DNA from: Candidatus Woesearchaeota archaeon
Lineage (GTDB): Archaea > Nanobdellota > Nanobdellia > Woesearchaeales > SM23-78
Assembly: GCA_016930415.1 (NCBI GenBank)
Contig: JAFGGS010000016.1
Location: forward strand, 275,340 to 339,339
Length of the DNA stretch: 64,000 nt
Reading direction: 5' to 3'
Part shown: in pieces, positions 24,858-63,316 of the stretch
Layout: every line of letters begins with the position of its first letter
Position numbering within the stretch: position 1 is the first letter of the stretch
Position numbers and translations under genes: made by a program
The notes under the pieces: generated by a model
Told to the model about the DNA's origin: nothing
What the model saw: only the letters and a program-made list of their open reading frames with translations
Database searches by the model: none

Positions 24858-25103
24858 GTGTTGAAAGGTAGACAAGCCAAGAACAGGACAAAAGAATCCG
24901 GAAAGCCACGAGAAGGGCAAACCGAAATAGTGAACATAAGAATCCCGAAAGACCTCATTCTAGAACTAGACTTTCTCGTAGAGAGAAGAGTGTTCAACTC
25001 ACGCTCAGAAGCCATAAGAGAATTTGCAAGAGAATACGTGCAAAGCCAAATGCACGAAAAAGACGCCAAAAGTTCTGAACAAGGGAGGAAGACAAAATGG
25101 TAG
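24858..25103 (+). CDS. Ribbon-helix-helix DNA-binding protein 1
   Basis: This 81-residue protein has a basic N-terminal arm (about 1-22), then the RHH pattern: strand EIVNIRIPKDLI (23-34), helix LILELDFLVERRV and helix SRSEAIREFAREYVQS. RHH (CopG/MetJ/Arc type) proteins are dimers that read DNA with the strand. The start is GTG 24858, or TTG 24861, which fits the GGGG upstream better. It is first in the operon and overlaps the next gene by 7 nt. It is likely to regulate the operon through the palindrome upstream. Confidence 0.82.
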   Translation: MLKGRQAKNRTKESGKPREGQTEIVNIRIPKDLILELDFLVERRVFNSRSEAIREFAREYVQSQMHEKDAKSSEQGRKTKW

Positions 25104-25393
25104 ACTCCATCGTGAGCATCAGGATGCCTTCCTCCCTGGTTCATGAACTCAAAAGCCTCTCGAAAGAGAACCACTTCCTAGACGTAAGCGAGGAGCTGCG
25201 AAGCATAATCAAGATCAAGACAAGAGAATACAAACTGAAGATAAGCGACGGCCAAAATATAACTGAAGAGAGAGAGGAGAAGATCGTAGAGAAACAGGTC
25301 GACTTCAAAACAGAGAATATCGTCAAGGAAGAGCTTGTCAAGCGGCTCAAGGAAATGATAAGGCAGCTTGAGAAGAACCATAAGGAAAGATGA
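25097..25393 (+). CDS. Ribbon-helix-helix protein 2 with C-terminal coiled coil
   Basis: This 98-residue protein has an RHH segment at the N-terminus (SIVSIRMPSSLVHELKSLSKENHFLDVSEELRS, about 4-37) and then about 50 residues of charged helix (TEEREEKIVEKQVDFKTENIV and following) likely to form a coiled coil. The second helix is less standard than that of RHH protein 1, so it may act as a heterodimer partner or bind protein rather than DNA. It overlaps RHH 1 by 7 nt and ends 7 nt before the surface-protein gene, so they are translated together. Confidence 0.72.
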   Translation: MVDSIVSIRMPSSLVHELKSLSKENHFLDVSEELRSIIKIKTREYKLKISDGQNITEEREEKIVEKQVDFKTENIVKEELVKRLKEMIRQLEKNHKER

Positions 25394-25400
25394 AAACAAG

Positions 25401-28400
25401 ATGAGAAGAACTAGCAGCATGAAAAGAAGCGGAGGGATGAAGAGCCCAAGCAGCCCCATGACAGGAAGAAGTCCGGCGGCTATCTTCATGCTAGCTACAG
25501 CAGCGATACTCATCACAATACTCACCATGATCATAACTTCCGCCCAAGCGTCTGCCATAATAGACCTCGTCTCACCAGAAGATGGGATGCACACGAACCA
25601 GAGCACGAACACGTTCGAATACTACCTCAACTTCAATGCGACCCAATGTACCATAAAGATAGACGGCACAAGCGCCAATACGACTCAAAGCAACAACGCA
25701 GGATTCAACACAATATCTGCTAGCGCCGCAATGGGCGAGCATCAATGGAAAGTCTCATGCGCAGGATCTAACGGGACAGAGGAGAGTGAGGAGAACCAAC
25801 TTACAATCGACTTAGTAGGACCTAGCATAGTGCTGTTCACCCCGCAGGATGGTGCGACGCTCACCACAAGAAAAGCGTCTTTGAGCTTCGTGGCGCTCGA
25901 CAACTTCGCTGAGCTGCTAGGATGCAGCATCAACATAGATGGGGAAGAAGCATATACTGTAGAAGCCAACAACAGCGAACCGATGACCATGACCACATAC
26001 GACTTCCCGGACGGAACGCATACCTGGAACGTGGGATGCAGCGACATGGCACAGAACTATAGAATGAGCGATACTAGAAGCTTCAAGACCAACACCACGC
26101 CCGCGGCGCCGACCTTCAGCATATCCCTCTCCAGGACGGCTTTCTACACAGGAGAGCAAGGCCAGATTACAGTCGCAGCTCCAGAAGGAAGCAGCGCAAG
26201 GGTCGAAGTATGCCCCGACACTAGCGGATTCGTCGAGTGCAGCGTACCCATAGACGTGCATAACTCGACCTCATTCCCTATCCAACAAGGATTGCCATTC
26301 CTCTACAATGCTAACAAGTACATAGTCGAAGCCTACTTCACGTACGCAAATTACACCGAAACGAAGACTGCAAGATACAATGTCAGCAGCAACATCGCAA
26401 TAAACGTAGACTACCCTGATAAGCCCAGGAAGAACGAGCCAGTGATGCTGGAAGCCAATGCGGGCGGAGGATATGGGACCTTGAACTACAAGTGGATATT
26501 GAGCAACGGGAACGTGGTCGAGAATAGGAAGGCCAACATCACGTACGCCTCAGCAGGAAACTACACTAACATAATAATCGTGACAGACGCTTACAACAAT
26601 TCAGTCAACAGGAGCATTTCCCTTGATGTCAGCGACTCCTACAAGATCAAGGTAATCGTGAAGGATGAGGAGACGCAAGCAAAGATATGGAAGGCCACTG
26701 TGGAAGTGGACGATCAGGAGAAAGACACCGACACCAATGGAGAGGTAGAGCTCTTCCTCAGGAAAGGCAAGAGAGACATCAGCATACTCGCAGAGAACTA
26801 CTCCCTCTACGCTGGCGAGCTTAACGTCACGAATGACGAGACATTTACAATACTGCTGATGCCGATGCAGCTGGTCAGGACAGAGCCACAAGTGACCTTG
26901 ACTTATCCCGACAACAACGCGAAGATAATGGGAGACTCCTCTGAACTGGGATTCAAAGTAGACCACAAGTACAAGACGAACTGCAGCATATACATAAGCG
27001 AGGAGCTGAACAGCGGCTTCTTCATCCACCTGGGAGATAAGGAAGTGGCTGCGAACGACAATGGAGAGAAGAGGATCCAGGTCATAGAGCTTGAGAACAT
27101 GACTTATTATTGGAAGGTGGAATGCAGTGATGATAAGGGCAAGACAGGATCCAGCGAGACCAGGAAATTCGACGTAGGGCTTAAGACATCGCTCTCCAAA
27201 GCAGGCAACGAGATCCAGCTCCTAAGCTCAAGGGTCAAGGAGTACGAGCTGCTGCTCTCGGACATCGCCAACATGCCGCCGGACCTGAAGGAGGGCGTAA
27301 CCAGGCTTGGTCTAGGCAAGCAGATTGAAGACGCGATAAAGGTCATGAAGGATGCAATCAGGGACATCGACGGCCTTTCCAGGAGCAACCAGCCAGCCGA
27401 CCAGATCGAGAGCTCTAAGAGGTCACTGTTTGAGAAAGCTGAGAGCGCATACCAGAAAGCGCCAGTAGATATAACCTTGTTAGGATCAGATTCGTTCGTG
27501 GACTACATAGAGTCCGCAGATCTAGAAGGGCTTGTCAATGAGGTCATCAAGTTAGAATACGGCGAAAACGAGAGCATCAACGCAAAGCAGGCCTTCAGCA
27601 GGATTGAGGAGCTTCAGCAGGAAGCAGTGATATCCACCAAGACCAAGAACCTCAGGGTGAGCTTTAGGGATGGAGCTCAGAAGGATATCACCTTGGTGAT
27701 AAGAGATATCAAGACCTACAACATAACAAGCGACGCCACGCTAGTGGAGGCCATACCTAAGGAAGTGGCGGCGAGCGCAGGAGAGATAAAGAGCGCGGCC
27801 GCGTTCAAAGTGATAAAGGATGACCCTATAATAAGCTTCCCGCTCTCCAAGGATGCTACGATAACATACTACTTTGAGAAGCACATCAGTCCAGAATCGC
27901 TTCGAGACATCAGGATAGCTGTCTTCACAGGCCTTGACAGGCTTGAGCCTGAATATGTAACTGGGTTTAGCATAAGCGACTTCGCGATTCCAGGAATCAA
28001 GAAGGGTTGGCTAATCCCGACCATAGTAATAATATTAGCAGGACTCGTTGTCTTCGCGACAAAGTACGAAGGTGTCAAGGCTGCAAAGTACGCGCTCTAT
28101 CTTGCCAAGAGGAAGAACACAGTCCACTACATCAACGTAATCCTAAGCGACATAGCAGATAACCTGCAAGCAGGCAACGTGCAAAAAGCGATCTCGCTCT
28201 ATGATGAGGCCAAGTCAGCGTATATTGATCTTCCAAGCATCGCAAAGAACGACGTGTATGAGAAGATAATGGATACTGCGAATAGGATCGAGAACTACCA
28301 GGAGACCCTTGCCAAGGATGACAGGCTGAAATCCATCACCGCACGGCTTCAAAGGACTGAGCAGATGATCTCTACGCAGCAGATAGGGATCGTGATACAT

Positions 28401-28523
28401 GATTACAAGCAGATAGAGGAGATGTATCACTCGCTTGAGGACAATGAGAAGGATGTTGTCCATGCAAGGATCGTGGACATAGGGAACAAGATACAGGTGA
28501 TGATCGACAGCAACAAGGCTTGA
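25401..28523 (+). CDS. Single-pass surface protein with Ig/PKD domains and cytoplasmic helical tail
   Basis: The 1,040-residue protein has an N-terminal signal or anchor (about 29-50), two Ig-like domains (about 55-230: VSPEDGMHTNQS..., FTPQDGATLTT...), a PKD-like domain (about 333-413, with NYKWILSNGNVVEN and ASAGNYTNIIIVTD), a carboxypeptidase-regulatory-like beta domain (about 414-483), another Ig-like domain, a helical stalk (about 600-720), a membrane segment (about 869-888, GWLIPTIVIILAGLVVFATK) and about 150 residues of cytoplasmic helices (VHYINVILSDIADNLQAGN and following). The topology is a large external arm and an internal helical tail, the right shape to signal or couple to cytoplasmic partners. 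ATG 25401 is chosen; a TTG 33 nt earlier lies inside the RHH gene. Confidence 0.75.
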   Translation: MRRTSSMKRSGGMKSPSSPMTGRSPAAIFMLATAAILITILTMIITSAQASAIIDLVSPEDGMHTNQSTNTFEYYLNFNATQCTIKIDGTSANTTQSNNAGFNTISASAAMGEHQWKVSCAGSNGTEESEENQLTIDLVGPSIVLFTPQDGATLTTRKASLSFVALDNFAELLGCSINIDGEEAYTVEANNSEPMTMTTYDFPDGTHTWNVGCSDMAQNYRMSDTRSFKTNTTPAAPTFSISLSRTAFYTGEQGQITVAAPEGSSARVEVCPDTSGFVECSVPIDVHNSTSFPIQQGLPFLYNANKYIVEAYFTYANYTETKTARYNVSSNIAINVDYPDKPRKNEPVMLEANAGGGYGTLNYKWILSNGNVVENRKANITYASAGNYTNIIIVTDAYNNSVNRSISLDVSDSYKIKVIVKDEETQAKIWKATVEVDDQEKDTDTNGEVELFLRKGKRDISILAENYSLYAGELNVTNDETFTILLMPMQLVRTEPQVTLTYPDNNAKIMGDSSELGFKVDHKYKTNCSIYISEELNSGFFIHLGDKEVAANDNGEKRIQVIELENMTYYWKVECSDDKGKTGSSETRKFDVGLKTSLSKAGNEIQLLSSRVKEYELLLSDIANMPPDLKEGVTRLGLGKQIEDAIKVMKDAIRDIDGLSRSNQPADQIESSKRSLFEKAESAYQKAPVDITLLGSDSFVDYIESADLEGLVNEVIKLEYGENESINAKQAFSRIEELQQEAVISTKTKNLRVSFRDGAQKDITLVIRDIKTYNITSDATLVEAIPKEVAASAGEIKSAAAFKVIKDDPIISFPLSKDATITYYFEKHISPESLRDIRIAVFTGLDRLEPEYVTGFSISDFAIPGIKKGWLIPTIVIILAGLVVFATKYEGVKAAKYALYLAKRKNTVHYINVILSDIADNLQAGNVQKAISLYDEAKSAYIDLPSIAKNDVYEKIMDTANRIENYQETLAKDDRLKSITARLQRTEQMISTQQIGIVIHDYKQIEEMYHSLEDNEKDVVHARIVDIGNKIQVMIDSNKA

Positions 28524-28589: not shown

Positions 28590-31500
28590 ATGAAAGACAA
28601 GAACATCAAGAAGGAACTCGCATTCGGAATCCTGATATTCATACTCGTAGTGCTATCAATCAAGGGGCTCATCACTGTCGCGCAATACGTGGGATACGCG
28701 TCTTACATGGAGGCTGATGGGGGCACGATAACAGAGATAGAGCTAATAGCCAAGTTCGACGTGACCCATTGGAACGCGCTTTACGGGACTGCTTGGAGCG
28801 TCGGCTACACGAGCACTTGGATGTATAACCTGACAGGGAACACTACGCTTACGACTACCAATAACGAGAAGCACATGATATTCATGTGCTTTGAGCCAGG
28901 AGTCGAGCACGAGCTGTACGCAAGCATGGTGCCTGAGGCAGCAATAGACTTCAATACGCTAACTGCAGCTACGCCTGCTGAATACGACGCTTACATGAAT
29001 GTCAACGGCGCAAGCTTCTACTCGGCGACCAACACGTTCACAGAGACAGAGACCTTCGAGGTTGGGGAGAACTCAATCACTACAGCGGCGACTATCACGA
29101 TGCGTCAGTCAACAAGCAACGTCACCTCCTTCGTGACTGGTCTACTCAAGGATGGCAGCGGAAACCTCGTCTTGGTCACTAAGATACTGACCGCGCCGAT
29201 CCAAGGATACAACTACGGATTATACAATTACCAGATGCTCCTCCCGATACAGAACGCTGATTCACAATTGTATTATGTCTGGAGCGACCCCACAGACGAG
29301 TGCCCTGAAGGGCAGGGAGTGGCGCCATGGACTGGCTGGGTGTTCGGAAACGTGACAGACACCTCAGGCAATCCGCTTGGAGAGGTAGCGATAGTCGTAG
29401 GAGGCCAGGTCAACATAAGCGATAATGTCACTGGAGAATACACTGTCTACAACGTCGAGGAAGGCAACCACTCCATATTCGCGCTCAAGACAGGCTTCAG
29501 GGTGTATCATGGAGAGGTCAATGTGAGCAGGGATAACGGGACTGTCCATAACATAGTGCTCGTGGCTGAGCAGCCGCCTAACCCGCCGCTCCCAGGCATC
29601 GGACCTGGAGAGGATGCACCAGGCGATCAGACAGAGACTGGAAAAGGCCCTGGCCAGACCGTGAAGACCAAGGATGCAGAGTATGACATGCCTCCTGTCA
29701 TGCAGAGGCCGAAGAAGATTGAGGGAACTGACTACATCATATCGATCGCTGAGATCAACAGGAAGCTTAGGATAGGCAATTTCCTCCAGGAGAAGGTCAC
29801 GCTCTACAGCTTCAAGGAGACGTCGGCTAACGTCTTCTTCGAGATCGTCGGGAACGTATCGGACCTGATTAAGATTGACAAGGACTCTGTAATAATAGCC
29901 CCCAGGGACTCTGACTTCATAACCCTCACGATCTTCGGAGTCGGAGAGATAGGCATGTACAACGGAAGTCTAGAGATTACAGGGGACTTCAACGCGAGCA
30001 TACCCATAATCATAGAGATACTTCCGAGGGATAAGTTGCCGGTAGAGGCATTGTTGATAGATGTTGAGCTTGCGAAGAAGAACGTGTATCCTGGAGAGAG
30101 CCTGAAGTTCAAGACAGACCTAAAAAACCTCTTGACGGATCAGCAGTACCCTGTGAACCTGCTCTTCAGCATCCAGAACATCGAGGGCACAGAGACCCTC
30201 TGGACTTATGACACCAATGTCTTCCTCAAAACGAGCTTTTCAATAATAAAGACTGCCCAGATCCCGAGGGACACCAAGCCAGGGGATTACGTGCTTAGGG
30301 TCACTGCCAATTATCTCGGGCTGAACTCAGGGACTAGCCAGATATTCAGGATAGACACGCCATGGTATCTCATACTCATCTGGGGTCCGATCAGAGTCTG
30401 GCACCTACTCTTGTTCCTATTGATAGCGGCAGGAATCGCATTTGCAGTCTGGGATATCAAGAGAAGGATCGAGGAGAAGAAGAAGTTCCACCTGAAGGTG
30501 GATACCAACGAACTTCCCAAGCCAGGAGGAAGGAGCATCTGGGTCGGCAAGATCGCTGAGACAGACACGAAAACCTACTTCAACATGGAAAGCTTCATGA
30601 CTCACTGCATCGACGCAGGATCCACTGGCAGCGGTAAGTCAGTCTCGGCGCAGGTCATAATAGAGGAGATGCTCATGAAGGGAATCTCAGTCATAGTCTT
30701 TGACCCTACGGCCCAGTGGACTGGGATGCTCAGGAAATGCACTGACAAGGTTATGTTGTCGCTATACCCTTATTATGGGATGAAACCAACCGACGCAAAG
30801 GCTTTCAACGGCAACATCAGGATGATAACGAATCCCAGGGAGATAATCGATATCAAGAAGTACGCGAAGCCAGGCGAGATCCAGGTGTTCGCCTGTCACA
30901 AGCTGGAGCCTAAGGACATGGACATATTCGTGGCGAACAGCATCAGGCAGATCTTCCGCGCGAACTACGGCGAGAGCAGGGCCTTGAAGGTCATCTTCGT
31001 GTATGACGAGGTCCACAGGCTGCTGCCCAAGTTCGGCGGCTCAGGAGAGGGCTTCCTGCAGATAGAGAGGGGCTGCAGGGAGTTCAGGAAGTGGGGGCTT
31101 GGAGTCCTGCTCATCTCCCAGGTCTTGAGCGACTTCGTAGGAACCATCAAGGCCAACATAAACACTGAGATACAGATGAGGACGAGGGATGAGGGAGACC
31201 TGGATCGTATCAGGGTGAAGTACGGAGATGACGTCTTGAGGTCGCTCGTTAAAGCCACTGTCGGAAGCGGAATGGTAGAGAACCCGCAATATAATATAGG
31301 AAAACCTTACTTCGTGGCGTTCAGGCCTCTCATGCACAGTGTCCAGCGTCTTACTGATGAGGAGATAGAGAAGTACAACGAGTACAACGACCAGATCGAG
31401 CAGATGCAGTACGAACTTGAGGAGCTTGAGAAGCTTGGAGTGGACGTGTTCGACCTGAGGCTTGAACTCAAGCTCGCCCTTGACAAGGTGAAGACCGGAA

Positions 31501-32396
31501 GCTTCAACATGGTCCAGATCTATATAGAGGGCTTGGCGCCAAGGGTGAAGAAGCACTGGGCTAAGCTTGGCAAGGTCGCTCCCAAGCTTGAGAAAAAGGT
31601 GATTTCAGAGTCAGAACTGAAGGCTGATCTTGAGAAAGCAAAACAGGCCAGGGAGGCTTACGAGGCTGAGCAGAAAAAGAAGAATCCTGCCGGAGCAGGC
31701 GGCGCGGGAGGCGCTCCTAAAGAGCAGGACTTGTATAAGAAGGACGTGAGTCCTGAGAAGCTGCTGAAGCTCGTGAACGGCATGCTCGTAATCAACATGG
31801 CAAGCCTCTACGATGAGATCGCTGCGATGAAGGATGATGATTACGCTCAGCACGTGAATTACAAGAAGAACGACTTCGCTAATTGGGTCAGGGACGCGGT
31901 CGGAGACCCTGAGATAGGAGAGCTGATAAGATACTCTGAAGGCAAGAAAGACGTGTTGTCGTTCCTGGAGCTGCGGAAGAACAAGAAGCCTCTTCCGAAG
32001 CTTGATCCTGAGAAGAAGAAGCGCGTCGAGGAAGCGAACGCGGCAGCGGCAGCGGCAGCGGCGAAGGCCGAGGAGGAGGCTAGGAAGAAGGCAGGTCAGC
32101 AAGGAGGACAGCCAGGTCAACCGCAAGCACCGCAACAGCCAGGACAGCCAGCAGCGCCTGGGACTCCTACGACGGCACAGGCTCAGCCAGCAGCGACTCA
32201 GACAACCCAACCTGCGCCTGCGCAAACAGCTGCGCAGCAGGCATCTCCTCCGCCAGCGCCAGCACCTCCAGCACCTGCAGGTCAAGAGCAGAAGAAAGAG
32301 GAAGATAAAGGGATACCTAGCTTGGATGATGAGATGAACGCGCTCATAAAAGAAGTCCTTGAGGAAGACAAGGCGCAGGGTGGTGCAAATGCCTGA
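28590..32396 (+). CDS. Membrane-anchored HerA/VirB4-type ATPase with large external domain
   Basis: The 1,268-residue protein has a first membrane helix (about 9-32), an external region of about 560 residues including a carboxypeptidase-regulatory-like domain (about 250-325, WVFGNVTDTSGNPLGEVAIV) and Ig-like domains, a second membrane segment (about 591-620), and a cytoplasmic ATPase. Walker A is GSTGSGKS (about 677-684), Walker B VIFVYDEVH (about 800-808), and a sensor-like QVLSDF follows. This is the HerA/FtsK/VirB4 P-loop family, which forms hexamers that pump DNA or drive secretion. The tail has a coiled coil and an Ala/Pro/Gln-rich low-complexity stretch (about 1150-1235). A membrane-fixed ring with a large outside domain is unlike HerA of the NurA repair pair; no nurA is nearby. 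Confidence 0.85.
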   Translation: MKDKNIKKELAFGILIFILVVLSIKGLITVAQYVGYASYMEADGGTITEIELIAKFDVTHWNALYGTAWSVGYTSTWMYNLTGNTTLTTTNNEKHMIFMCFEPGVEHELYASMVPEAAIDFNTLTAATPAEYDAYMNVNGASFYSATNTFTETETFEVGENSITTAATITMRQSTSNVTSFVTGLLKDGSGNLVLVTKILTAPIQGYNYGLYNYQMLLPIQNADSQLYYVWSDPTDECPEGQGVAPWTGWVFGNVTDTSGNPLGEVAIVVGGQVNISDNVTGEYTVYNVEEGNHSIFALKTGFRVYHGEVNVSRDNGTVHNIVLVAEQPPNPPLPGIGPGEDAPGDQTETGKGPGQTVKTKDAEYDMPPVMQRPKKIEGTDYIISIAEINRKLRIGNFLQEKVTLYSFKETSANVFFEIVGNVSDLIKIDKDSVIIAPRDSDFITLTIFGVGEIGMYNGSLEITGDFNASIPIIIEILPRDKLPVEALLIDVELAKKNVYPGESLKFKTDLKNLLTDQQYPVNLLFSIQNIEGTETLWTYDTNVFLKTSFSIIKTAQIPRDTKPGDYVLRVTANYLGLNSGTSQIFRIDTPWYLILIWGPIRVWHLLLFLLIAAGIAFAVWDIKRRIEEKKKFHLKVDTNELPKPGGRSIWVGKIAETDTKTYFNMESFMTHCIDAGSTGSGKSVSAQVIIEEMLMKGISVIVFDPTAQWTGMLRKCTDKVMLSLYPYYGMKPTDAKAFNGNIRMITNPREIIDIKKYAKPGEIQVFACHKLEPKDMDIFVANSIRQIFRANYGESRALKVIFVYDEVHRLLPKFGGSGEGFLQIERGCREFRKWGLGVLLISQVLSDFVGTIKANINTEIQMRTRDEGDLDRIRVKYGDDVLRSLVKATVGSGMVENPQYNIGKPYFVAFRPLMHSVQRLTDEEIEKYNEYNDQIEQMQYELEELEKLGVDVFDLRLELKLALDKVKTGSFNMVQIYIEGLAPRVKKHWAKLGKVAPKLEKKVISESELKADLEKAKQAREAYEAEQKKKNPAGAGGAGGAPKEQDLYKKDVSPEKLLKLVNGMLVINMASLYDEIAAMKDDDYAQHVNYKKNDFANWVRDAVGDPEIGELIRYSEGKKDVLSFLELRKNKKPLPKLDPEKKKRVEEANAAAAAAAAKAEEEARKKAGQQGGQPGQPQAPQQPGQPAAPGTPTTAQAQPAATQTTQPAPAQTAAQQASPPPAPAPPAPAGQEQKKEEDKGIPSLDDEMNALIKEVLEEDKAQGGANA

Positions 32397-32904
32397 CGAC
32401 TCAGAATTGACGGACGAGACTCCTGAGGAGAAAGCGAAGAGGGAGAAGGACGAGGCAGAGCTCAAGAAGACCGTGGTAGAAGTGACTGAGACCAACAAGA
32501 AGATAGATGATGTTTATGATGAGAGGATGAGGATATTGGAGATGAAGAGGAAACTCGTCCCGACTGACGAGCAGGCTGAGGAAGAGCATCAGGGAAAGAT
32601 CCTCATGCTCAAGGAGAGATACGAGGATTTAAGGAGCAGGATAAGCCAGGCCCGCAGGAAGGGCAAGGATCCTATAATCGCTGACCTGATGACCAGGAAC
32701 ATCCCTGCTAAGATAAAGATCGCTGATGCTACCCGTGAGAAGAGGGATTTTGACCAGGTCGAGATCATGCTCAAGAACGTCGAGGCCGAGCTTGAGGAGG
32801 CGCTCAAGGAGGTCGAGATCAACGTCAAGATGGAGATAGAGCAGCGTTTGAAGAGTGACTTCCAGAAGGCCACTGGAAAGGTAGAGGAGGTTGAGGAGGA
32901 CTGA
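32389..32904 (+). CDS. Coiled-coil protein downstream of the HerA-like ATPase
   Basis: This 171-residue protein is not recognised. It is nearly all charged helix (KAKREKDEAELKKTVVEVTE, LKERYEDLRSRISQARRKG, VEAELEEALKEVE), so an elongated coiled coil is likely. No signal or membrane segment. ATG 32389 overlaps the ATPase gene by 8 nt and has GGTGG 7 nt upstream; the in-frame codon at 32359 lies well inside the ATPase gene. The tight coupling suggests a fixed-ratio partner of the ATPase, for example an adaptor below the ring. Confidence 0.72.
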   Translation: MPDDSELTDETPEEKAKREKDEAELKKTVVEVTETNKKIDDVYDERMRILEMKRKLVPTDEQAEEEHQGKILMLKERYEDLRSRISQARRKGKDPIIADLMTRNIPAKIKIADATREKRDFDQVEIMLKNVEAELEEALKEVEINVKMEIEQRLKSDFQKATGKVEEVEED

Positions 32905-33025
32905 CTAGGCAAGGTGAGGTGCGTTAAAACATAACTGTTAAAAAAAGAGGATTACAAGATATCGATTACAGGAAGAATAGGAGAGAAAGGAAAAAAGAGG
33001 AACGAGAGAAGAGGTGAGTTTAGCA

Positions 33026-34486
33026 TTGGGATTATTCGACAAGAAGCCCAGTAGGGATGATGTCATCGCGCAGGGAATCGCGCAGCAGGCAGCCGACGCA
33101 GAGGCAGCTGCAGGAGGGTCTGACAAGAAGGATGACATGTTCAGCTCCGGCAACCCTAAGGTTGACATGGAGATAGTCAAGATAAAGGCTCAGCTGGAGT
33201 CATTCAATGAGATAAGGAAGTCCAATTCTGAAAGGTTCTCAAGGCTTGGAGAGCAGATGGGAGAGCTTCGCGGCATGATCCTCGACACTAACAAGACGCT
33301 CTCCAAGGTAGAGGTGAGCGCGACCAAGGCTATAGACTTAGTGGAGAGCGTCCAGCCTGAGAAGCTCATGATAGAGATCAGGAAGATGGACGGCAAGGTC
33401 GAGAGCCTCAAGGCCAACATCGAGAGCAACGAGTCCATGATGCGAGACCTCATGGATGAGCTCAAGAAGATGCGTTCCCAGATGAACTTCTACAAAGGGA
33501 TAGAGCAGGTGGCCAAGCTCAACGAGGAGGTCAAGGGGGAGATCCTTGAGATAAAGAAGGTCGAGGCTACTATCGAGAGGCACGCTGACAAGGGAGAGAG
33601 TATATTCCTTGACATGGAGAAGAAGTTCGCGGAGTATGAGAAGTTCCAGAAGAAGGTGGACGACATGGACTCAGTGTTCCACGCGATCCAGAACGATTTC
33701 GACAAGATGAAGCTTGGCATAAGCAATAAGTCCGATCGGAAGGAGTTCATCACGCTCATCAACAAGTTCTCTGAGTTCGAGAAGCATACTAGTGAGGTAT
33801 TGAAGCTTCTGGATGAGAGGAATAGGAAGAACAGGAATGATATGAAGGAGGCAGTCTCCAAGATCAAGAAGATAGTCGCTAAAAAGCAGGGTCTGCGCAT
33901 AGATGACGTTGACATAAGCAAGGGAGACAGGGATCTTCCGGACCTGAAGCTCAAGCCTGAGCTTTTGATCACCAAGGAGGATGCTCAGAAGATCGAGGGC
34001 GCTCAGGAGAAGGAGGCCGCTGCCATGGATGCGCAGACAAAGGAGGCCCAGGAAGCTCTCGAGAAGAAGAAGGCTGATGAGCAGAGGAAGTCAGAGGAAC
34101 AGCAGAAGGCAGGGAGTGATGGGAAGGAGGAAGAGAAGAAGGGAGAGAAGAAGGATGAGAACAACTCGTCTGCGCCTCCTGAGAATCCGGAATTGACTCC
34201 GCCTCCGCCGCCTCCATCCAAACCTGCTCCTGAAAAAGCCCCTGAAAAAGAGCTTACACAACCAACCGAGCCTGTGCAGCCAGCTAAGGAAGCAGTACCT
34301 GATCAGGCTGAGCCCTCAGCAAGTCCTGAAGAGCCCGGAAAGAAAGGGGGAAGCCTGAAGGGATTCATAAACCTCGTGAAGAAGAAGGTGGATGACAGCA
34401 TCCAGCGCTCTGAGAACGGCGATCCTAATCTCTTAGGAGTGATCGGGCTCCGCAAAAAGGCCGAGAAGAAGGAAGAGCATGAATAA
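33026..34486 (+). CDS. Coiled-coil protein with proline-rich tail, possibly ArlCDE-like
   Basis: This 486-residue protein starts MGLFDKKPSRDDVIAQ, has a long coiled coil (about 45-290) and a low-complexity tail rich in Glu/Lys and Pro (about 310-425, including a run of six prolines) before a short conserved end (KGFINLVKKKVDD...LLGVIGLRKKA). The central segment (VQPEKLMIEIRKMDGKVESL... RSQMNFYKGIEQVAKLNEEV) resembles in style the FlaC/ArlC-type coiled coils of archaellum motors, but I cannot confirm homology. Start TTG 33026 is chosen because GAGGTGAG (33011-33018) ends 7 nt before it; an in-frame GTG at 33014 lies within that site. It is the last gene of the HerA operon by position. Confidence 0.7.
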   Translation: MGLFDKKPSRDDVIAQGIAQQAADAEAAAGGSDKKDDMFSSGNPKVDMEIVKIKAQLESFNEIRKSNSERFSRLGEQMGELRGMILDTNKTLSKVEVSATKAIDLVESVQPEKLMIEIRKMDGKVESLKANIESNESMMRDLMDELKKMRSQMNFYKGIEQVAKLNEEVKGEILEIKKVEATIERHADKGESIFLDMEKKFAEYEKFQKKVDDMDSVFHAIQNDFDKMKLGISNKSDRKEFITLINKFSEFEKHTSEVLKLLDERNRKNRNDMKEAVSKIKKIVAKKQGLRIDDVDISKGDRDLPDLKLKPELLITKEDAQKIEGAQEKEAAAMDAQTKEAQEALEKKKADEQRKSEEQQKAGSDGKEEEKKGEKKDENNSSAPPENPELTPPPPPPSKPAPEKAPEKELTQPTEPVQPAKEAVPDQAEPSASPEEPGKKGGSLKGFINLVKKKVDDSIQRSENGDPNLLGVIGLRKKAEKKEEHE

Positions 34487-36930: not shown

Positions 36931-39900
36931 ATGAGAATAGGAAAGGCAGGAGCCAGGACAGCGAAGACAGCCAATAGCATGGCAATGATAGTCATAGTGC
37001 TGGCCATAACCCTGCTGACGACTTCTGCAGCAGCAAACAACAACGTAACGCTGACCATCCCAAAGACGACATATTACTTAGGGGAGAGAGTCACCATCAC
37101 GATAACAGGAGCGCTCACAGACCACAGCCTAAAAGTCCAGACCCCAACCAAAAGCTACAAGTTCTCAGGAGAGATGAACGGACAGATACCGTTCATACCA
37201 AAAGAAGACGGGAATTACAGAGTCATACTGACCAAAGGCCAAACCCCCCTGCAAGACATAGCGTTCAAGGTTAGTTCGGCAGAGCAAACAAGCCCTCAAG
37301 AGCAGAGCCAAGTCCCGCCAACACCAGAAAATGCCAGCGAGAGCGAGGAGAACAAGACAAGCCAGCAGGAAGAACAAGTGCAGCAAGAGATGCAACAAGA
37401 AGGACAGACCGAGCCCCGACAAACCCAGAAAAACAGATTCATCAGGACAGAGAAGAAGACGTACAGCCTAGGAGAGACGGTCACTGCAGACATCTCCGCA
37501 GACCCCTTAGAATACCAGCTATACTATGAATACTCAGGATTGATCCAGAAGCACATGGGAGACTTCAGGAAGATAACCCTAAGACCGAAAGGGATAGGGC
37601 TTCACCTACTCATCCTCAGAGACAAGAACAACAGCCTCGTGGAAGAGCACGAGATCACAGTAGACGAGCCAGAAGGGAAGCCAGATGGAAACTTAAGCGA
37701 GAGCGATCAGCCCCAAGCGCAGGAAAACACCACTTCAACAGGCACGACCAACACAACAGGCATGACCAACACAACAAACACGACAGGCAGCACAATCACC
37801 AAAGGCGCAGCGCCAAGCAAGGAATATCACGATGCAAGATCGCTAATAGCGTTGTCTGACGGAACCGGACAACCGGTGCAAGCAGAGGTGCAGGCCGCAG
37901 CGAGCCAGCCAGGGATCGACACGCAGGCAACAGAGAACCAATCGTCGCAGACCTCGCAGGACCGACCGTTGAGGCCAGGGAAGTACGACGTCGTCATGGA
38001 CCTCAGCCAGGCTATCGGATCAGGAAAGATAAGGAGCATATCACTAAGCGACCTGCAATACAACGGAAGCGCGCTTGACCTCAGAGTAGAGGAGGTGCCG
38101 CTCGCAAGCATCAAGGAGACTGAGGAAGACAGGATAGGAAGCGAGATAATATCAGCCTACGCGATAGATCCCACAAGGCTCAACTTCACAAGAGGCACCC
38201 TGACTGCGACAGCCAATGGCAGGGAGCTCTGGAAATGCGCAGAGTGGAACTTCACGGCAAGGACTTGCGAAGGAAACTGGGCGAAAGTGATGAGCCTTAA
38301 GCCAGGCCAGGATTATGAATTGTTGCTCTCACCCCAAGACCCAGCATACGCAGAGACAGGAGTTGCCAGCATCAACACCAACCAGTCGGTTTACCAGCCA
38401 GGACAAGTCGCGCTGATAACCATAGTCGCTCTCGACACACAAGGACACCTAGTGCCGGCGGCACAAGTGAACGTGACAGTGACCATACCCGGAAGCACAG
38501 ACCCCATCCAAGTAAGGCAGACTGAAGAGCCAGAGCGAGGCATCTACGAGTTCGAGTACAACCAGACGCTGACTGAAGGGACCTACAACATGCAGGCGAC
38601 CGTGCTAGGCGCGGAAGTCAACAGCACGATGACGTCCAATTTCCTTGTGAGCAGCGCAGAAGAGTTCGAGATAATAAGGACGACGCCCCACACCACCGAT
38701 CCTTTCATGACAGACTTCCAGACGATCATAAGAGTCACCAGCAGGAACTACACAAGCTTCAACTACACAGAGACCCTGCCGGCGAACTTCACCATAATAG
38801 ACGCAGGAGGAGCGGCGGTAGTGGCCAGCAGCGAATCAATCCTGCTGACCTGGAGCATGACAAACAACACAGAGATAACATACACCGCAGTTCCGCCGCT
38901 CGTGACGCCAGAGCTATACGAGCTCAGAGGAACAATCGGATATTACGCCGCCAACGAGACGTATGAAACGTACGAGGAGGCAAGGGCATGGCTCCTCGCA
39001 GTGGACCCGCAATATGACACCACTTCCTCAGTAGAGATGAAAGTCTTGCCGCTGGACGAAGTCACGTTCGCAATCATGTACATAGACTCCTCGTCGCAAG
39101 ACGTGAGCATACAAGTCTTGAATACTACAGGATCAGTCCTTGTGAGCGAGACCGACCTCAATCTGGACGTAGACTTGGATGGAAGGGTTGATGGCGCAGT
39201 GATAAACAGCACGCACTTCGCAGTCGGGGTGTATGACAGCAGTGGCGGCGGAAACGTAGAGTACTATATCTATGACAGGTACGGCAACCAGGACCTGGGA
39301 GCGACGCAGGTCGACACAGGGGCTGGAAGGACAGTCGACATAGGTATGGCCAGCATAGGAGATCGGCTGGCGTTCGCATGGACAGTTGATGATGGCAGCA
39401 ACGACGTGAACGGCGAGATCTGGACCCTTGGGGGCGCTTCTGTTACAGCAGAGTGGAACGTGGATGGGAACGCGGCTCCGGATGACATACGGAGGAACGA
39501 CGTCGACGCGGCAGGCATAAGCAGCACCAGATGGGTAGTCGCTTGGTTTGATGATAACAGCGACGCAGTCAGGATAAGCCTATACGACCAGAATGGCGGA
39601 TCAGGCAACGAGGTGGCAGGGCCAGTAACCCCTGACGCGGCAGTCGGAGGAACCGCAGGAGTCGCAGTCACTGCCCTTCGCAACGGCTACGTCGCAATGG
39701 CGTATTATGACAGCGTAGACGATGACATCAGCATGGTGATATACGACACCAGCGCAGACTCGTTCGCGACAGTCTACGGACCAGCAGATATCAACACGAC
39801 CGTCGGGACCGATTCAAGACTCGCAATCTCAGAAGTTGAGTCAGACGGCCAAAGCATGATAGCGCTCGTCTGGTGGAACCAGGCGATAGACGCGATCCAA

Positions 39901-42900
39901 GCCACTGTCTACAACAGCACAGGAGGACTGGTCACGCCGCAGTTCATAGTAGACTCAGACCCAGCATCATCAACCTATCCGCTGCTAAGCGTGGCCGGCG
40001 CAGTCAACCACTCAGGAGTCAGCCTTTGCAGCAACACGTTCATAGTCGCATACAACAACGACACAGGAGATGCGTCATACAAGCAATACTATGTTAACGG
40101 AACCGACTGGAACGGAGTATGCCATAAGAACAGCCCGTCAACAGTCCCGACTGACATAAGATGCGATGGAAGCACCAATTGCAACATAGTGGTCACTGGG
40201 AGCGTAGTCATCAACAGCACAGGATCGACAGACCCTGACGGCGACAACATCACATACCACATAGAAGCATGGCTGCAGAACGTCAGCTCCGCAGAGCATA
40301 CGACAGACTTGTCATTCAACAGCACAATACCCTCAATCAGCTATGATTCCTACAGTTCCAGCAGTATAAGCGCAAGCACAACGCTCTCATGGGCTCACAC
40401 AATTGGCGGCGGAAGCAACAGGCTCTTAGTAGTCGGTGTTGCTGCAGAAGACGCCACCTCGGCGCAGACTGATGTCACAGGAGTCACCTACAACAGCGTC
40501 GCGATGATGCCTCTCAACGAGGAGGTCACAGGATCATCTTATTACGAGAACGTAGAACTGTGGTACATGCTAGAATCAGACCTGCCTGCAGCAGGCAGCC
40601 ACACAATCCAGGTGACAATTGGAGGGAACGCAGAGGATATAATAGGAGGGGCAGTCTCGCTCTCAGGAGTAGCGCAGCAAGCGCCAGAAGCCAACACCAC
40701 CAATGAAGACAATCAGGCAGGAAACGCCTACATCTACACTAGCATAACAACGTTGACCGACAATGCCTGGCTTGTGGACGTCGTAGGAAGCGGCAACGCA
40801 ATAGGAGGCTTCACTACAGCAACCACAGGGCAAACCGAAAGATGGGATACAGTTGCAGCAAGCTCAAGGGGCGCGATGAGCACAAAGGAGGTGTCAACCG
40901 CAGGCCTCACCTGGATGAATTGGACTGCTGCAGGATCAAACAGGATAACGCACGCAGTGGCGGCATTCGCACCTACTGCAGTAGACGTGAATAGCAGCTA
41001 CACGACTTATCCTGACGCAGACGGAGACTATGACCAGGTCGAGGATGTGACCGTCACTATAGAGGTCGACAGCTACGATCCGAGCGGAAGCTATGCTGAA
41101 TCATCGCTTTATCCGGATGTCCAACTAGAGCTGTATAACGGCAGCAGCTGGGTAAGCGTAGGACTGTTCGGGCTAAACAACACATACCTCGGAGACAGCC
41201 TGGATACAACCAACAGAATATTCAAGCTCAATACAACGCAGGCAAGCGTACTGGCCTCGTGGGCGACTTCATCCAACCAAGATGCAAGGATAAGAGGCGT
41301 GAACCTGGATTACTCAGGCGCATCCAGCCAGGACCAGATAAACATAACCACTGTGTGGGTGAACGTGACTGGTAGGAGATGGACAGAGATAGGCAACCAT
41401 ACCGAGACGACCGCGTTCACGTGGAACACGCAAAACATAACAGACCAGACCTGTGTGGACCTTCGAAGCAGGGCGATAGACTACGACGGGTCAGCCACGT
41501 TCAGCAGCTATTACACGAAGGGAGCCTGCATGAACCTAAGCGCCTTCCCGCCACCCCTGCTAAGCAACATCCAATGCTTCAGGACAGGGACTGGGTGGAC
41601 CGCCTGCAGCAACATATTGTTCGGGAGCACGATGGAGCAGGTCAGGGCAACCTGCACTTCCCAGATGGGGGGAAACATCACCAATGTCTCATTCAGCCTC
41701 TCAAACTCCCAGGACGCACACACCTACTTTGACGTCACTGCAACCACGAATTCATCAAGCGTCTGGACTTATGACATACCTGACCTCACCATCAGGGACT
41801 CAGGGAACTTCAACCTGCACGTGACCTGCAGGGAGAACCCGACGACAGAGGAAAACGTCGACTGGTGGATACCTTTCGGAACTCTCTCGGCCCAGATGAA
41901 CTATCCGACGACGCACATCAATGTCACCAGGAACCGGCTCTTCAACTGGTCATCCAATATCACCTGCAGCGGAGGGGAGTGCGGATGGATGAATGCGACC
42001 CTGGATCCGATCGAGGATTGGTGGAGCACCAATTACGGCTACAGGAGCATGATAAACGTGACGAACAACGACGGCTCCACAGCCCTCCAAGCAGGCCACA
42101 CAGTAAACTTCACGCTGAACCATTCGGGGCTTGTCAGCCAAGGAAAATCCCTGTCAAGCGGGAACGACGTGAGAGTCACTTACTACAACGGGACGAGCCA
42201 TGTCGAGATAGACAGGATAAACCTCAGTGCGTGGAACACAGCGACCACAGTGATTGCGTTCAGGCTTCAGGAAAGCCTCCCTGCATCCTCTGTAGGGGCC
42301 AATTACACAGTGTATTACGGGAATGGAGGCGCGGGAAGCCCGCCGCAGGACCCTTCAGGAGTATACTTCATATACGACCAGTTCAATGATTCATCTATAG
42401 GCAGCGATTGGTCCACTGCAGACAATGACCTTGTAGCAGGCACGAGTTTTGCGGAAGGGAACGATTACCTGCAGATAGACGCTGGAGGAGCAGACACCTG
42501 GACCGGCAACGACGAGTTCGGTGCAGTGTATCAGCAGATAACAGGGGACTTCGACGCGTATGCAAGGATAAACTACCAGGAAGCAGCGGATCCTTGGGCC
42601 AAGGCAGGCATCATGGCAAGGAACGACATGACCACCCCGGCTTCGTCGACTGGATACGTATTCATGGCCGAGACCCCAGGGAACGATTTCTCTTTCCAAC
42701 GGGATTCCAACAACAACGGATACCTAGACGCCAACACGCAAGGAGGAGCCACCACATATCCTGGGTGGGTGAGGCTTAGGAAGGTCGGAACAAGTTTCAC
42801 AGGATACTATGCAACAACCAATCCGGAGTCAGGAGGAACCTGGAACACAATCGCGAGTGCCACGATAACGTCCACCCTGACAACCCAAGACATAGGCCTC

Positions 42901-45900
42901 GCAGTGACGTCGCATGCAGGCACGACCCTAAGCAACGTAACTTTCGAGTTCATCAAAGTGACGCTGGTGATAGGGACTTCCCCTACAGCGCAGCTAGGGG
43001 AGGAAGAGACTTCAGGGAAAGGAGTCATACCCATGTATAGCGGGATGCCGTTCTACACAGATACAGCGAACCCGATGGTCGCAGCCAACAACTCCTGCCT
43101 ATTCAACATGACCAGCGGAGGAGTATGCACGACTGAATGGGATGTGAACGCGACCGGGAGCGCCGGCAGCACCTGGACCTTCTACGCCCAATACGAGTCG
43201 CTCAACTACTCAACCAACATGAGCGTCAAGAACACCACCCTGATAAACATCACGATAATAAGCAACCAGGCGCCATCCATGGTTTTCGTCAACATAAGCC
43301 CCAGCAAGCCAGGGCCAAGCACACCTCTCAACTGCACGTTCAGAGTGCACGACTCAAGCTACAACGACCCCTTGCTCGCGAACATCTCATGGTACGAGTC
43401 AGGCACGCTCAGATACAGCACCATATGGAGCGTCGTGAACGGCCAGACCACAGTCCACACGCTCTCTCCTGGAAACACGACAGCCGGCGAGACCTGGTGG
43501 TGCGGAGTGACCCCGAGCGACCACGAGCTTACAGGCAACCAATCCAATAGCACAAGCGTACTCGTCCTTGCCTCAGAGCCCCCTGTCATAAATAGCATCC
43601 AATGCCAGGAGAGCGGCGGGAGCTGGTCTTCCTGCAGCAACGTGCTCTTCAATGACAACCTGACCGGCGTGCGGGCGCAGTGCACAGACCCGGACGGCTA
43701 TGTCCTGAACGCGACCTTCAGGCTTGACAACGTCTTTGACAGCACGACGCTCTTCAGCAACTTCACGTCCGACAACAGCAGCTATCCAGGATACTGGTAC
43801 TTCAACAACACAGATACAGTGATAAGGGATTCAGGGCTGTTCACCCTGAACGTGACCTGTTGGGACAATTCGACGACGCCAGGGACGGGAAGCACTAACT
43901 GGACGATTCCCTGGGGGACGATAACAGGCAACCTCATAAATCCCGGCAGCGACGTGAACGTGACCCAGGACAAATACTTCAACTTCACGGCCAGGATCAC
44001 CTGCAGCGGGGGAGAGTGCGGATACATCAACGCGACGCTCGACCCGTCCAACTGGTGGAACGAGTCATTCTGGTACAGGCAGTCGATAAACCTGACAGAG
44101 AATTCAGGGAACACGCTTACAGACTACCAGTTCGCGGTGACCCTGAACACGGCGACGCCTATAAGCCAAGGCCATATGAGGAGCGATTGCGGAGACTTAA
44201 GGTTTGTGAACGGATCAGGCACGATGCTGAGCTACTGGATTGAGTCAGGCTGCAACTCAGCGAACACGCTAGTCTGGGTGAAGCATAGCCTGGCAGCTAG
44301 CAGCAGCCAGCTCATATACGCGTACTACGGGAACTCGACAGTATTGAACGCAAGCAACGCCACAGCGACGCTGTTCATCTACGAGGACATGACGACCGCA
44401 CCAACAGGCACGATGACCGGGTCGGCATGGTATGACAGCGGCAACGGACGGGTGGAGCTCACGAACACAGGAGGGAACCTGCTAGGATACCTATACTACC
44501 TCCAGAATCCAGGTCCTGGATTCTACGGAAGGTATGAGACTTGGGCAGGAGGAGGAAGCGGAGCGGACTCCACCTGGTTCGGAGTGCACGACACATCAGT
44601 ATCATCAGGAAGGGAGGACATCGTGAACGGCGGATACCACTTCACGGTCGACGAATGGCAGGACAGGGTGGCGTTCACCAAGAGCACTGTTGACAACGGC
44701 GCACCAATCGCATACTGGGGATCATCAACCCTTGACAACTCTCAGTGGCATAACTTCACGGTGTACTTCTACAATAGCGGGGCCAGCGCAAACGCACTCA
44801 TCTACTACGACCAAGTCTTGAGGGTCAACGGAACCGACAACTCGCCGCAGTCGACTGCAGGCAACTACTTCTTCGTCGGAGGAAGGACAGGAGGTTCCAC
44901 GAACTACCACTACGTGAGGAACATAAGAGTGATGAAATACGTCAACCCGCAGCCGACTGCAACACTCGGCACTGAGATCTCACAGACGAAAGGCATAATC
45001 CCGATGCACACAGGAGACCCATTCTACACGATAACCGCGAACCCGATGTACGCCGCCAACAACAGCTGCCTCACAGACATGAGAGGGGGAGATAGCTGCG
45101 ACACGACCTGGGTCGTCAACGCGACAGGCATCACAGGGGTGCCTTGGGAGTTCTTCGTGACATACAGCTCGATGAACTACTCAGATTACGGGGTCTCTAA
45201 CGTCACGAAGAAGATAAACATCACCATAACCGCCAACATGGCGCCCAACGTATCATACATATTCCTGAACCCAGAGTATCCGTTGCCAAACGAGGACCTG
45301 TACTGCAACTTCACGATCTACGACCCCAACTTCTTCGACACCCTGAGGGCCAACGTTAGCTGGTATCGCGGAACGACGCTGATGCACTCCCAGATAGTGA
45401 GCGCATCGAACGGCGTCGAGACGTACGGGATGCTCGGGTACGGCAACACGTCGCTATACGACGTATGGCACTGCGGAGTGAAGCCCTACGACGAGGACAC
45501 GTCAGGACTCCAGGTGAACTCGTCCAACGTGACCATAGACCTCACCAAGCCCCCGTCTATCCACGAGATACAATGCCAGAGGAACAACGCGACGTGGACT
45601 GGGTGCGGGAACATCACGTTCTACGACAACATCACAGGCATAAGGGTGAACTGCACGACAGATTACATGCCGATAAAGAACATGACAGTCAACATCACTA
45701 ACATCCCGGACGCGTACACGTTCTTCACCAACACCACGACCACAAACATAAGCCACTGGTGGTACGTCAACAAGACCCTGCTCATCAACAACTCAGGGAC
45801 GTACACGATCGGAGCGGTGTGCATGAACAACGAGTCAGGCATGGATGATTACTCAGTCTCATGGACAGTTCCTTGGGGGCACTTCGTAGTGACCCAGATA

Positions 45901-48900
45901 GACCCTGACTCCAACAGGGACGTCGAGCAGTACAGGTTCTTCACATACACAGTAAACATTAGCTGCGTCGGAGGAGAGTGCGGCGACGTCGAGGCAATAC
46001 TCGACCCGCGAGAAGATTCCGGAGAGGTATCTGAAGATATATCAGGAGAGATGTCGGGAGAGGTGTCTAGAGGAATCTCATACCTGCAGCCCCAATCGAC
46101 TCAATCCAGGCCAATAAATGGCAAGAAGCTCGGAAACCCAGAGTACCCGCATGGACTAGTCACAATCAACCCGGAGAAGCCAGTCTATGAACCTGGAGAG
46201 CGCGTGAAGCTGGCGGCAGTCGCCCTTGACAGTAAGGGAGACTTCGCGCCTGATGAAAAGCTGACATTGAGCATAGCCAGGCCTGACAAGAAGAAGGACA
46301 CGTTCGTGCTTGACCGAAGGCACGAGACCAAGCCAGGGCTTTACGAGACAGTATACCTGCCTGCCATGCAGGAAGGAACATACACAGTGACCGTCTCTTC
46401 AGATGGAAGGGTCAAGGACAGCACACAGACAACATTCGTGGTCAGCGACGACAGCCAGGATTATCCGTTCTACATCATAAGGGATGCGCCAGTAACCATA
46501 GACCCTTGGAGAGAGCATTTCAGGGCTAGCATAAGGATAGCTGCGAGAGATCCCGCGTCAAAGGCGGAAAACATCTTGTTGACGGAGAGGATCCCGCCCG
46601 ATTGGGAGATTATAGACCCGCAAGGCGCATACGTCTGGGAGTCAGAGGATTGGAAGGAGCTCGTGTGGACCATACGATTGCCTGGATTGACTGGGGAGGA
46701 CGCGCTAGCAGGATATACTGCAAGTATCCCGTTGGTATCCCCCAACAGATACGGACTGAAGGCTTCAGTGGCAAGCGGCGGAAGGACATATGACGAAGCC
46801 AGGCAATGGATGGTCGCGATCGACCCGACAGCCTATTACGTGGCGTATGCAGACACGACGAGCACATACAGCAGCGGCGGAGGATCAGCGACAGATGGAG
46901 GAAGCTACGCCAATACGGACGTGGCTGACTGCTCGGGAGGAACATGCACCCAGTCTAATTCGTGGGTGACCGGTCGAATAAACTTCAACAACGTAGAGCC
47001 CTACAACTGCATGGTCAACTCGACCTTGTCATTCAACGTGAGCAGCCTGAAGGCAATCTACATGCAGAACGTGACCATAACCTGGAACGGTTGCTGGCAT
47101 GGCACAGAGTCACTTGCAGCCAGCAGCTGCACAGGCACGTCCAACCCTGACTTCTACGACGGATCAGGAGGAGGAAGCTTCGACATGCTTATACAAAACG
47201 GCACTAGCTGGAGCAAGCTCGATTGCGTCAACACAGTAGGAAGCGAATGCGGAGCAGGAAGCATAATACCACTAGGTTCTGAAGGCGTATCGCCCTCCTG
47301 GGGAGACGCAGACACGTACCACACGTACAGGTACACTATCAAAGGGATAAACTCTACCTATCTCCAAAACAACAACCAGACGATAAACATAATGTGGAGG
47401 ATGTGGGGAGACGGCACTTGCGGAGACACCGACAGCGAGGACGACATACAGATGGCCATAGACTACGCCAATCTCAGCGTCGAATGGGCATACCTGACGA
47501 AGAGCGGCATGATATCAACAATCGCAGGCACAGAACCCTTCTACACGACAAGCCCCAACCCGCAGGACAAGGGAGACGTGAGCTGCCTATCAGACATGAT
47601 ATCGGGCAAGACCTGCACTGTCACATGGTCAGTCAACGCCTCAGGAGGCATAAACACGACTCACGAGTTCTACGTGATAGCCAACGTGACACAATACCCC
47701 TTATACGTCAACAACAGCGAATCGACTCATATATACATTACTATAAGGGACACCTCAGGGGTTCCGCCAGTGACGACCCTTGTATCCCCCGCCCACAACT
47801 CAGCGGTCGCGAACACAACAGTCGTATTCAACTGCTCAGCTACAGACAACAATGGCCTGGTAAATGCGACTCTTTACGGCAACTTCAGCGGGACGTGGTC
47901 ATCCGACGGGACCAACCCCTTCGGAGGCACCAGCAACAGCACAACCTTCAGCAGAACGCTAAGTGAAGGCACGTACATCTGGAATTGCCTAGCGTACGAC
48001 GACGATGGCAACTACGATTGGGGCAACAGCAATTACACAGTGACTGTCGACGTCACCAAACCTAACATAACCTTGGTCAACCTTGCGCCCGGCCAGGAGA
48101 TAACCAGCGGAAGCATACAGTTCAACTTCACGGCAAGAGACAACCTCGACCCTACATTGACATGTAACCTGACAGTGGACGGCGCATTCAACAACACGAA
48201 CATGCCGGCCACGAACGGGGCCTTGACATCAAGCCTGGTCACGGGGCTGGCCCAAGGGACACATTGGTGGAACGTGACCTGCTGGGACGACGCTGGAAAC
48301 ACCAATGTAAGCGAGAACAGGAACTTCACCATAGTAGATCTCCCACCGACAGTCGTCCTGAACACGCCAAACATGTACTCCCAGAACTATCCAGTCATAT
48401 CGCTATCATACACGCCGAATGACAACAATGGGATCGTGAACGCGACGATCTACATCGACAGCCAGATCAACCAGAGCGAGACAGCAGTAGACAACGGCGA
48501 GCCAAATGAGTTCGACGTGTACGGCCTCACAGAAGGATGGCATAACTGGACCGTGAACGTGACTGACGTGAGCAACCTATCGGCTCAAGCGCCCTGGATA
48601 TGGTTCATAATAGACTTCACCCCGCCGCAGATCAACGTGTACGCCCCTGCCAACAAGACCACTACCAACAATACGGACCTGTTCAACTTCTCAGTCACAG
48701 ACAACCTCCACACCAACGCGTATTGCAACATAACTATAAACGGAGTGGTATGGGATGTGAATTTCCAGGTCCAGAACGGGACTAACGTGTCCAGGACGAT
48801 AAGCAACATCCCTGACGGCAACAACTACTGGAACATCACCTGCTGGGACAACGCGAGCAACAGGAACACTAGTGAGACGAGACTGCTCAACATAAGCGCT

Positions 48901-61644: not shown

Positions 61645-61767
61645 ATGATCCTGGAAAAGGCGCAGGACCGATAAGTTTAAAAGAATACGAGAACGTAAGA
61701 TACACAACCAATTAAGTATGCTATCAAGCTCTAGAAAAAAAGAAAAAAAAGAAGAGGCAAAGAAAAA

Positions 61768-62124: not shown

Positions 62125-62164
62125 TAGTATATATTCGGAAAAAAGAGAGGGGTGTCAAAGAAAA

Positions 62165-62530: not shown

Positions 62531-62545
62531 GCCCGGGTGATATAT

Positions 62546-63199: not shown

Positions 63200-63316
63200 G
63201 CAGGACCCCAAGAAAACGCCGAGCCATCCAGGACGGAAAAGAGGAGAAGACAAGAATATCTGTCACTAACCAACCGATGGCTCGTCAACAGCGACAATAA
63301 CGAAAAAAAGAGGAAA

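Follow-up and report, generated by a model that had tools for sequence, protein, structure and literature searches.

A membrane-anchored HerA-fold ATPase with a predicted extracellular arm, encoded in a conserved operon of DPANN-type archaea

The stretch of DNA analysed here (the window: 64,000 nt of Candidatus Woesearchaeota archaeon, assembly GCA_016930415.1, contig JAFGGS010000016.1, positions 275,340-339,339, forward strand) encodes a protein whose architecture we confirmed as a first transmembrane segment (TM1), an outside arm of beta domains (about 570 residues), a second transmembrane segment (TM2) and an intact HerA-fold ATPase. Computational analysis establishes the reading frame and its motifs, the HerA fold, a predicted topology, a family of relatives and an operon. 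With about even confidence, we read the protein as the motor subunit of a SPEARE-type cell-surface machine of DPANN archaea.

Architecture and predicted topology

A sequence-only reading had proposed a HerA-family ATPase fused to an Ig/carboxypeptidase-regulatory-like region, with Walker motifs that follow a second membrane segment closing a large extracellular region, and the reading frame, motifs, domain matches, AlphaFold2 (AF2) models and relatives bore this out (Table 1). Pfam DUF87, the HerA central domain, scores 43 bits in the window protein against a cut-off of 23. Walker A lies at the residues given in that reading, and Walker B (about 800-808) and TM2 (591-620) lie very close to where they had been placed. 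The CarboxypepD_reg domain was found in 27 of the 29 relatives with a window-type arm and is present in 5-6 copies in longer arms. The order TM1, arm, TM2, motor recurs in more than 60 loci and is therefore neither due to chance nor an artefact of fused reading frames or a frameshift.

AF2 modelling of the arm on an alignment of 29 arms (mean pLDDT 77.5, pTM 0.43, so that the relative placement of the domains is unsure) gave, in order, TM1, an N-terminal beta domain, a further beta domain at the site of the CarboxypepD_reg match, the disordered linker (329-373), a pair of Ig-like sandwiches and TM2. Foldseek searches with this model returned many beta-sandwich and tandem Ig-type proteins, all with low TM-scores. 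The model of the stalk, TM2 and motor, built on the family alignment, was confident (pLDDT 89, pTM 0.74); its top PDB match was Sulfolobus HerA, and HerA structures dominated the matches, followed by the coupling protein TcpA and FtsK. When the motor sequence profile was compared with solved structures, solely HerA-type chains matched at E <= 0.001. In the model about 20 residues separate the TM2 helix from the motor's first strand, and there is therefore no space for a HAS barrel.

Topology was assessed from charge statistics in the 63 relatives whose N-terminus is complete. Across TM1 the mean net charge falls from +2.4 to -0.5, and across TM2 it rises from +1.1 to +4.4; 90% (TM1) and 92% (TM2) of these proteins obey the positive-inside rule. 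On the basis of these charges and the CarboxypepD_reg/Ig content, the arm is predicted to lie outside rather than in the cytoplasm, and the motor inside.

Table 1. Features of the window discussed in the text (window coordinates; residue numbers refer to the ATPase)
Feature	Coordinates	Strand	Remarks
Small ORF similar to the RHH-type gene found ahead of the operon in relatives	25097..25393	+	
UP1000 upstream partner	25368..28523	+	1,051 aa; TM at ~38 and ~880; Ig/PKD-type outside part; helical cytoplasmic tail
Membrane-anchored HerA-fold ATPase with predicted extracellular arm	28590..32396	+	1,268 aa; uninterrupted frame
TM1	28614..28682	+	~residues 9-31; N-terminus inside; from hydropathy, charge statistics and AF2 helix 6-39
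N-terminal beta domain of arm	28707..29324	+	~residues 40-245; without Pfam family
CarboxypepD_reg domain	29343..29561	+	residues 252-324; Pfam score under cut-off in the window protein
Pro/Gly-rich disordered linker	29574..29708	+	residues 329-373; pLDDT < 50
Two membrane-proximal Ig-like beta-sandwich domains	29727..30359	+	~residues 380-478 and 485-590; predicted structures
TM2	30396..30464	+	~residues 603-625 (hydropathy stretch ~592-625); positively charged stretch next
HerA-fold motor core	30522..31349	+	residues 645-920; joined to TM2, no HAS barrel
Walker A GSTGSGKS	30618..30641	+	residues 677-684; intact
Walker B IFVYDE	30993..31010	+	residues 802-807; intact
REFRKWG...LLISQV motif	31077..31124	+	~residues 830-845; aligns with REGRKF...(I/T)(T/S)Q motif of HerA-like proteins
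C-terminal KNDF domain	31734..31964	+	~residues 1049-1125; distantly DUF5752-like; separate gene beside the motor elsewhere
KNDF/coil-group small cytoplasmic coil protein	32359..32904	+	181 aa; overlaps end of ATPase gene
COIL2 cytoplasmic coiled-coil partner	33014..34486	+	490 aa; no known family
Giant secreted Ig-type protein	36931..54987	+	6,018 aa; N-terminal signal-like segment

Affinity of the motor

All 32 family members grouped in one clade, with support of 100/99, in a tree built from 86 motor sequences (296 columns, LG+C20). This clade sits on a long stem branch and is separate from VirB4-like proteins, from the HerA class of ~505 aa and from the DUF87 classes of ~660 and ~440 aa. 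TrwB, on a very long branch, was placed elsewhere than the window clade. The sister group of the motor clade is not fixed by this tree, and the long stem and long branches call for caution. The best NCBIfam matches (CedD, HerA, TraC and TraD) reached 27-38 bits against cut-offs of 366-970. By fold, the affinity of the motor is with HerA rather than VirB4.

These data bear on a rival explanation, a DNA repair helicase of the usual HerA type that became anchored in the membrane and acts together with a nuclease. In its favour are the HerA fold and the fact that the motor is the sole DUF87 match of the source assembly. However, no NurA was found in a search of this assembly, which is 91% complete, whereas 7 of the 14 controls were positive. 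Nor is there a HAS barrel between TM2 and the motor, and the clade stands apart from the soluble HerA-like classes, which many relatives encode as well. We regard such a helicase as highly improbable, and reject a HerA-NurA repair pair in particular, given the lone DUF87 match, the absent NurA and the separate clade; the motors do not nest within the soluble HerA-like classes, the point on which the sequence-only reading had asked for a phylogeny.

Distribution, arm lengths and paralogues

A scan of 84,980 species genomes revealed relatives at 278 or more loci. The best 80 of 278 all come from DPANN-type archaea and are labelled Woesearchaeota, Nanoarchaeota/Nanoarchaeia, Pacearchaeota, Diapherotrites, Aenigmatarchaeota, 'Nanohalarchaeota', one Euryarchaeota and other archaea. 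Within the window's own order, at least 18 of 59 genomes have a motor-level match, and these span many family-level groups. The motor profile also matches 33 of the 34 genomes of another DPANN phylum, about two thirds of them very strongly; the weak matches there may be other HerA classes. A viral origin was rejected, as no relative was found among the viral contigs searched, and so was a plasmid origin, the plasmid matches consisting of distant HerA/FtsK proteins alone with at most ~30% identity.

In complete loci the arms fall into a short class (215-240 residues), the window class (545-576) and longer arms of up to 1,184 residues, and across the family they range from 215 to ~15,400 residues. 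The spacing from TM2 to Walker A is constant (74-85 residues) throughout the family. The motor makes up the C-terminal portion of ORFs with 15,809, 9,165, 8,149, 4,197 and 3,995 aa (genomes G029, G027, G047 and G054). The longest of these (G029:C41, L032-L034), with TM1 at 21, TM2 at 15,417, Walker A at 15,494 and no internal stop, exceeds the 9,409 aa given for the largest protein of cultivated archaea (PMC10266531). Motor-containing open frames of 12,145 and 10,914 aa occur in other DPANN genomes.

It is this hugely variable arm length, combined with a constant motor and TM2 spacing and with an arm covalently joined to the motor in all complete members, that would suit a mechanical tether, in which nothing is transported across the membrane and ATP hydrolysis rearranges, clusters or retracts the arms and so tunes adhesion. 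Yet known translocases have just such a HerA fold, with the catalytic motifs intact, and we know of no HerA-type ring that solely moves arms; we therefore think such a tether unlikely.

A giant-arm motor adjoins a short-arm motor (695-726 aa) in four loci (G029C41, G029C97, G027 and G054), and there the paired motor cores are 82-93% identical as against 22-26% for TM2 plus stalk. These pairs fit recent duplication or gene conversion. In other genomes (L117, L120 and L141) the giant-arm and short-arm motors are old, separate lineages in the tree. One reading of these sequences is that giant-arm and short-arm subunits may form mixed rings. We suggest, tentatively and with low confidence, that the motors are kept alike so as to build one ring with unequal arms, in which one tether or a few would extend to as much as ~15,400 residues; the window lineage would then be a one-motor form with the giant as a separate secreted protein. 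A 1,418-aa long-arm paralogue in another genome (G020:C13, L048) has lost the Walker B glutamate (DGIHT versus DEVHR) and is possibly an inactive subunit.

The operon and its surroundings

Clustering of the neighbours at 79 loci gave a repeated order of an RHH-type gene, UP1000, the motor, a KNDF/coil protein and COIL2, frequently with 4-bp overlaps. In relatives UP1000 has two TM segments with PKD, Ig and CarboxypepD_reg domains outside. It is found upstream of 30 of 39 long-arm motors, and COIL2 is found downstream of 36 of 42 long-arm motors versus none of 16 short-arm motors. The KNDF domain is fused to the motor C-terminus in some members, including the window protein, and at locus L137 a coil of the KNDF/coil type seems, by eye, to be fused to the motor; fusion and adjacency together suggest that the motor and the KNDF/coil proteins form a single complex. 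This small domain (motif HVN..KNDFANW) is present in several copies per genome (e.g. L092:12082-13308 and L074:12506-13357).

In the window and several relatives the operon is followed by a giant secreted Ig protein. The last ~780 residues of the window giant are ~50% identical to the ends of giants in two other genomes (G002 and G003). Directly ahead of the giant surface-protein genes lies a gene of ~195 aa (36279-36872 in the window), by eye a winged-helix regulator; similar-sized genes precede the giants at G029C93, G054C7, G047C9, G006C28, G002C2 and G003C34, with sequence similarity confirmed in 8 loci only. A chemotaxis cluster comes directly after the giants (59686-64000, continuing in G000:C1 to ~347500), in which CheA and CheC were identified by Pfam and CheY, CheD, a receptor, CheW, CheB and a CheR-like gene by eye. 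KaiC-like ATPase genes lie a short way downstream of the motor in a few loci (L119, L123 and L113). We considered and rejected a part of an archaellum: the T2SSE ATPases of the source genome are on other contigs and the chemotaxis cluster lies downstream, yet COIL2 matches no family.

Proposed function

We favour, by analogy, a contact-associated translocase that would carry DNA more likely than protein, with the direction of transport left open, because CedB and CedD are the nearest functional precedent. Six copies of the protein (the number is taken from HerA) would form an ATPase ring at the inner membrane face, fixed by TM2, with TM1 and TM2 holding the beta-domain arm outside. The arms and UP1000, probably together with the nearby secreted giant Ig proteins, would bind a partner cell or surface, and the ring, driven by ATP, would then draw a polymer (DNA being the most likely) across the membrane through a pore. 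For COIL2 and the KNDF/coil proteins we propose a cytoplasmic role in coupling or regulating the ring. A hexamer that carries six arms, already pictured in the sequence-only reading, is plausible by homology; we infer hexamer, pore, substrate, direction and partner cell alike, and we know of no host for the source organism.

A translocase is supported by the intact Walker A/B and SQ motifs, the HerA-type fold, the charge statistics, the rigid TM2-Walker A spacing, the conserved operon and the order of arm, TM and ATPase common to SPEARE proteins. Against it count, above all, the recurrent conserved neighbours, among which no VirB6/CedA-like channel and no VirB2/CedA1-like pilin was recognised, and the operon, in which no nuclease or relaxase was found. 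The same neighbours matter for protein secretion, in which the ring would energise a type-IV-secretion-like injector delivering effector proteins into a partner cell. This has been put forward for nanohaloarchaeal giants of the same architecture (PMC10266531), and the motor is related to the HerA/VirB4/VirD4 superfamily and has giant secreted proteins encoded nearby. However, there are no recognisable VirB partners among the conserved neighbours, the VirB4 N-terminal domain (PF03135) has no match in the window protein or in the four short-arm paralogues tested, and the motor does not join VirB4 with support in the tree, so that we consider protein secretion possible but rather doubtful.

By what means DPANN archaea obtain material from their hosts or act on them is still debated, and the SPEARE giants are thought to act on the hosts of symbiotic archaea. 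With a motor common to at least 278 loci and a defined set of partner genes, the scattered SPEARE giants become one testable machine, whose short-armed version, at 1,268 aa, lends itself much better to expression and imaging than do proteins of 6,000-16,000 residues. The combination of arm, TM and ATPase is not new, as SPEARE proteins already have it (PMC6642349, PMC10266531). New here are the Woesearchaeota form with its short arm, a fold whose affinity is with HerA rather than VirB4, an operon that recurs across the family, a constant TM2-Walker A spacing and the homogenisation of paralogues, none of which we found described in the open literature (subscription journals and preprints lay outside the search).

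Comparison with known systems

The HerA of HerA-NurA, the archaeal DNA end-resection translocase, has the same motor fold and intact Walker A and B motifs. It differs in its N-terminal HAS beta-barrel, for which the short TM2-Walker A segment of the window motor has no counterpart, and in being soluble with a NurA partner, where the window protein has two conserved predicted TM segments and no NurA. In VirB4 of type IV secretion systems, CedB and TedB an N-terminal domain precedes the motor, whereas here TM2 directly precedes it. CedB and CedD of the Sulfolobales are TM-anchored HerA-like ATPases, two paralogues that are both needed for DNA import (PMC11868833). The window motor resembles them in its anchoring and fold, and CedD is its best NCBIfam match, though at 38 bits against a cut-off of 600; in place of their VirB4-like N-terminal domain it has the large outside arm, and CedA/CedA1 were not seen nearby. 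Similar in layout are the coupling proteins VirD4, TraD and TrwB, which likewise consist of TM1, an outside segment, TM2 and a cytoplasmic RecA-type motor. Their outside segment is short by comparison with the arms of the window family; the window motor shows no supported grouping with TrwB, and no conjugation genes were seen with it.

The SPEARE proteins of Nanohaloarchaeota, of up to 8,553 aa, were described as having an arm outside, a TM segment and, in the cytoplasm, a conserved region interpreted as a restriction enzyme (Hamm et al. 2019, PMC6642349). In 2023 this region was reinterpreted as a VirB4/TraG-like ATPase that has another ATPase as its neighbour, and a role in secretion was proposed (PMC10266531); one SPEARE protein was seen in a symbiont proteome (PMC6642349, PMC10266531). 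Weak matches to ResIII (type III restriction) in 30 of 61 motors would explain the older 'restriction' label. Cytoplasmic SPEARE-like sequences were also reported from Woesearchaeota and others, including a 9-kb vent-sediment contig with the match RLG14629.1 (PMC6642349). Our locus L137, whose motor is ~60% identical to the window motor, is a contig of 9,424 bp from a nanohaloarchaeal MAG of Guaymas origin, and because this size fits the reported one it is probably that match, which would then belong to the window motor family. The giants in the genome search centred on L137 do not have a halophile-like composition. The kind of protein is partly known, the halophilic SPEARE proteins being compared by published description only.

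On that footing, the SPEARE proteins and, by prediction, the window protein have arm, TM and cytoplasmic ATPase in the same order. SPEARE proteins contain at least one laminin-G domain, whereas the window protein has no LamG match at E <= 0.1. They run to thousands of residues, as against 1,268 aa for the window protein, whose relatives in turn reach 15,809 aa. In two species the SPEARE gene has been reported to adjoin a second ATPase gene; some relatives likewise have a second motor, but the source genome, with its single DUF87 match, has none. Unlike the SPEARE proteins, the window protein has a CarboxypepD_reg/Ig arm and belongs to a defined operon that also encodes COIL2 and KNDF/coil proteins.
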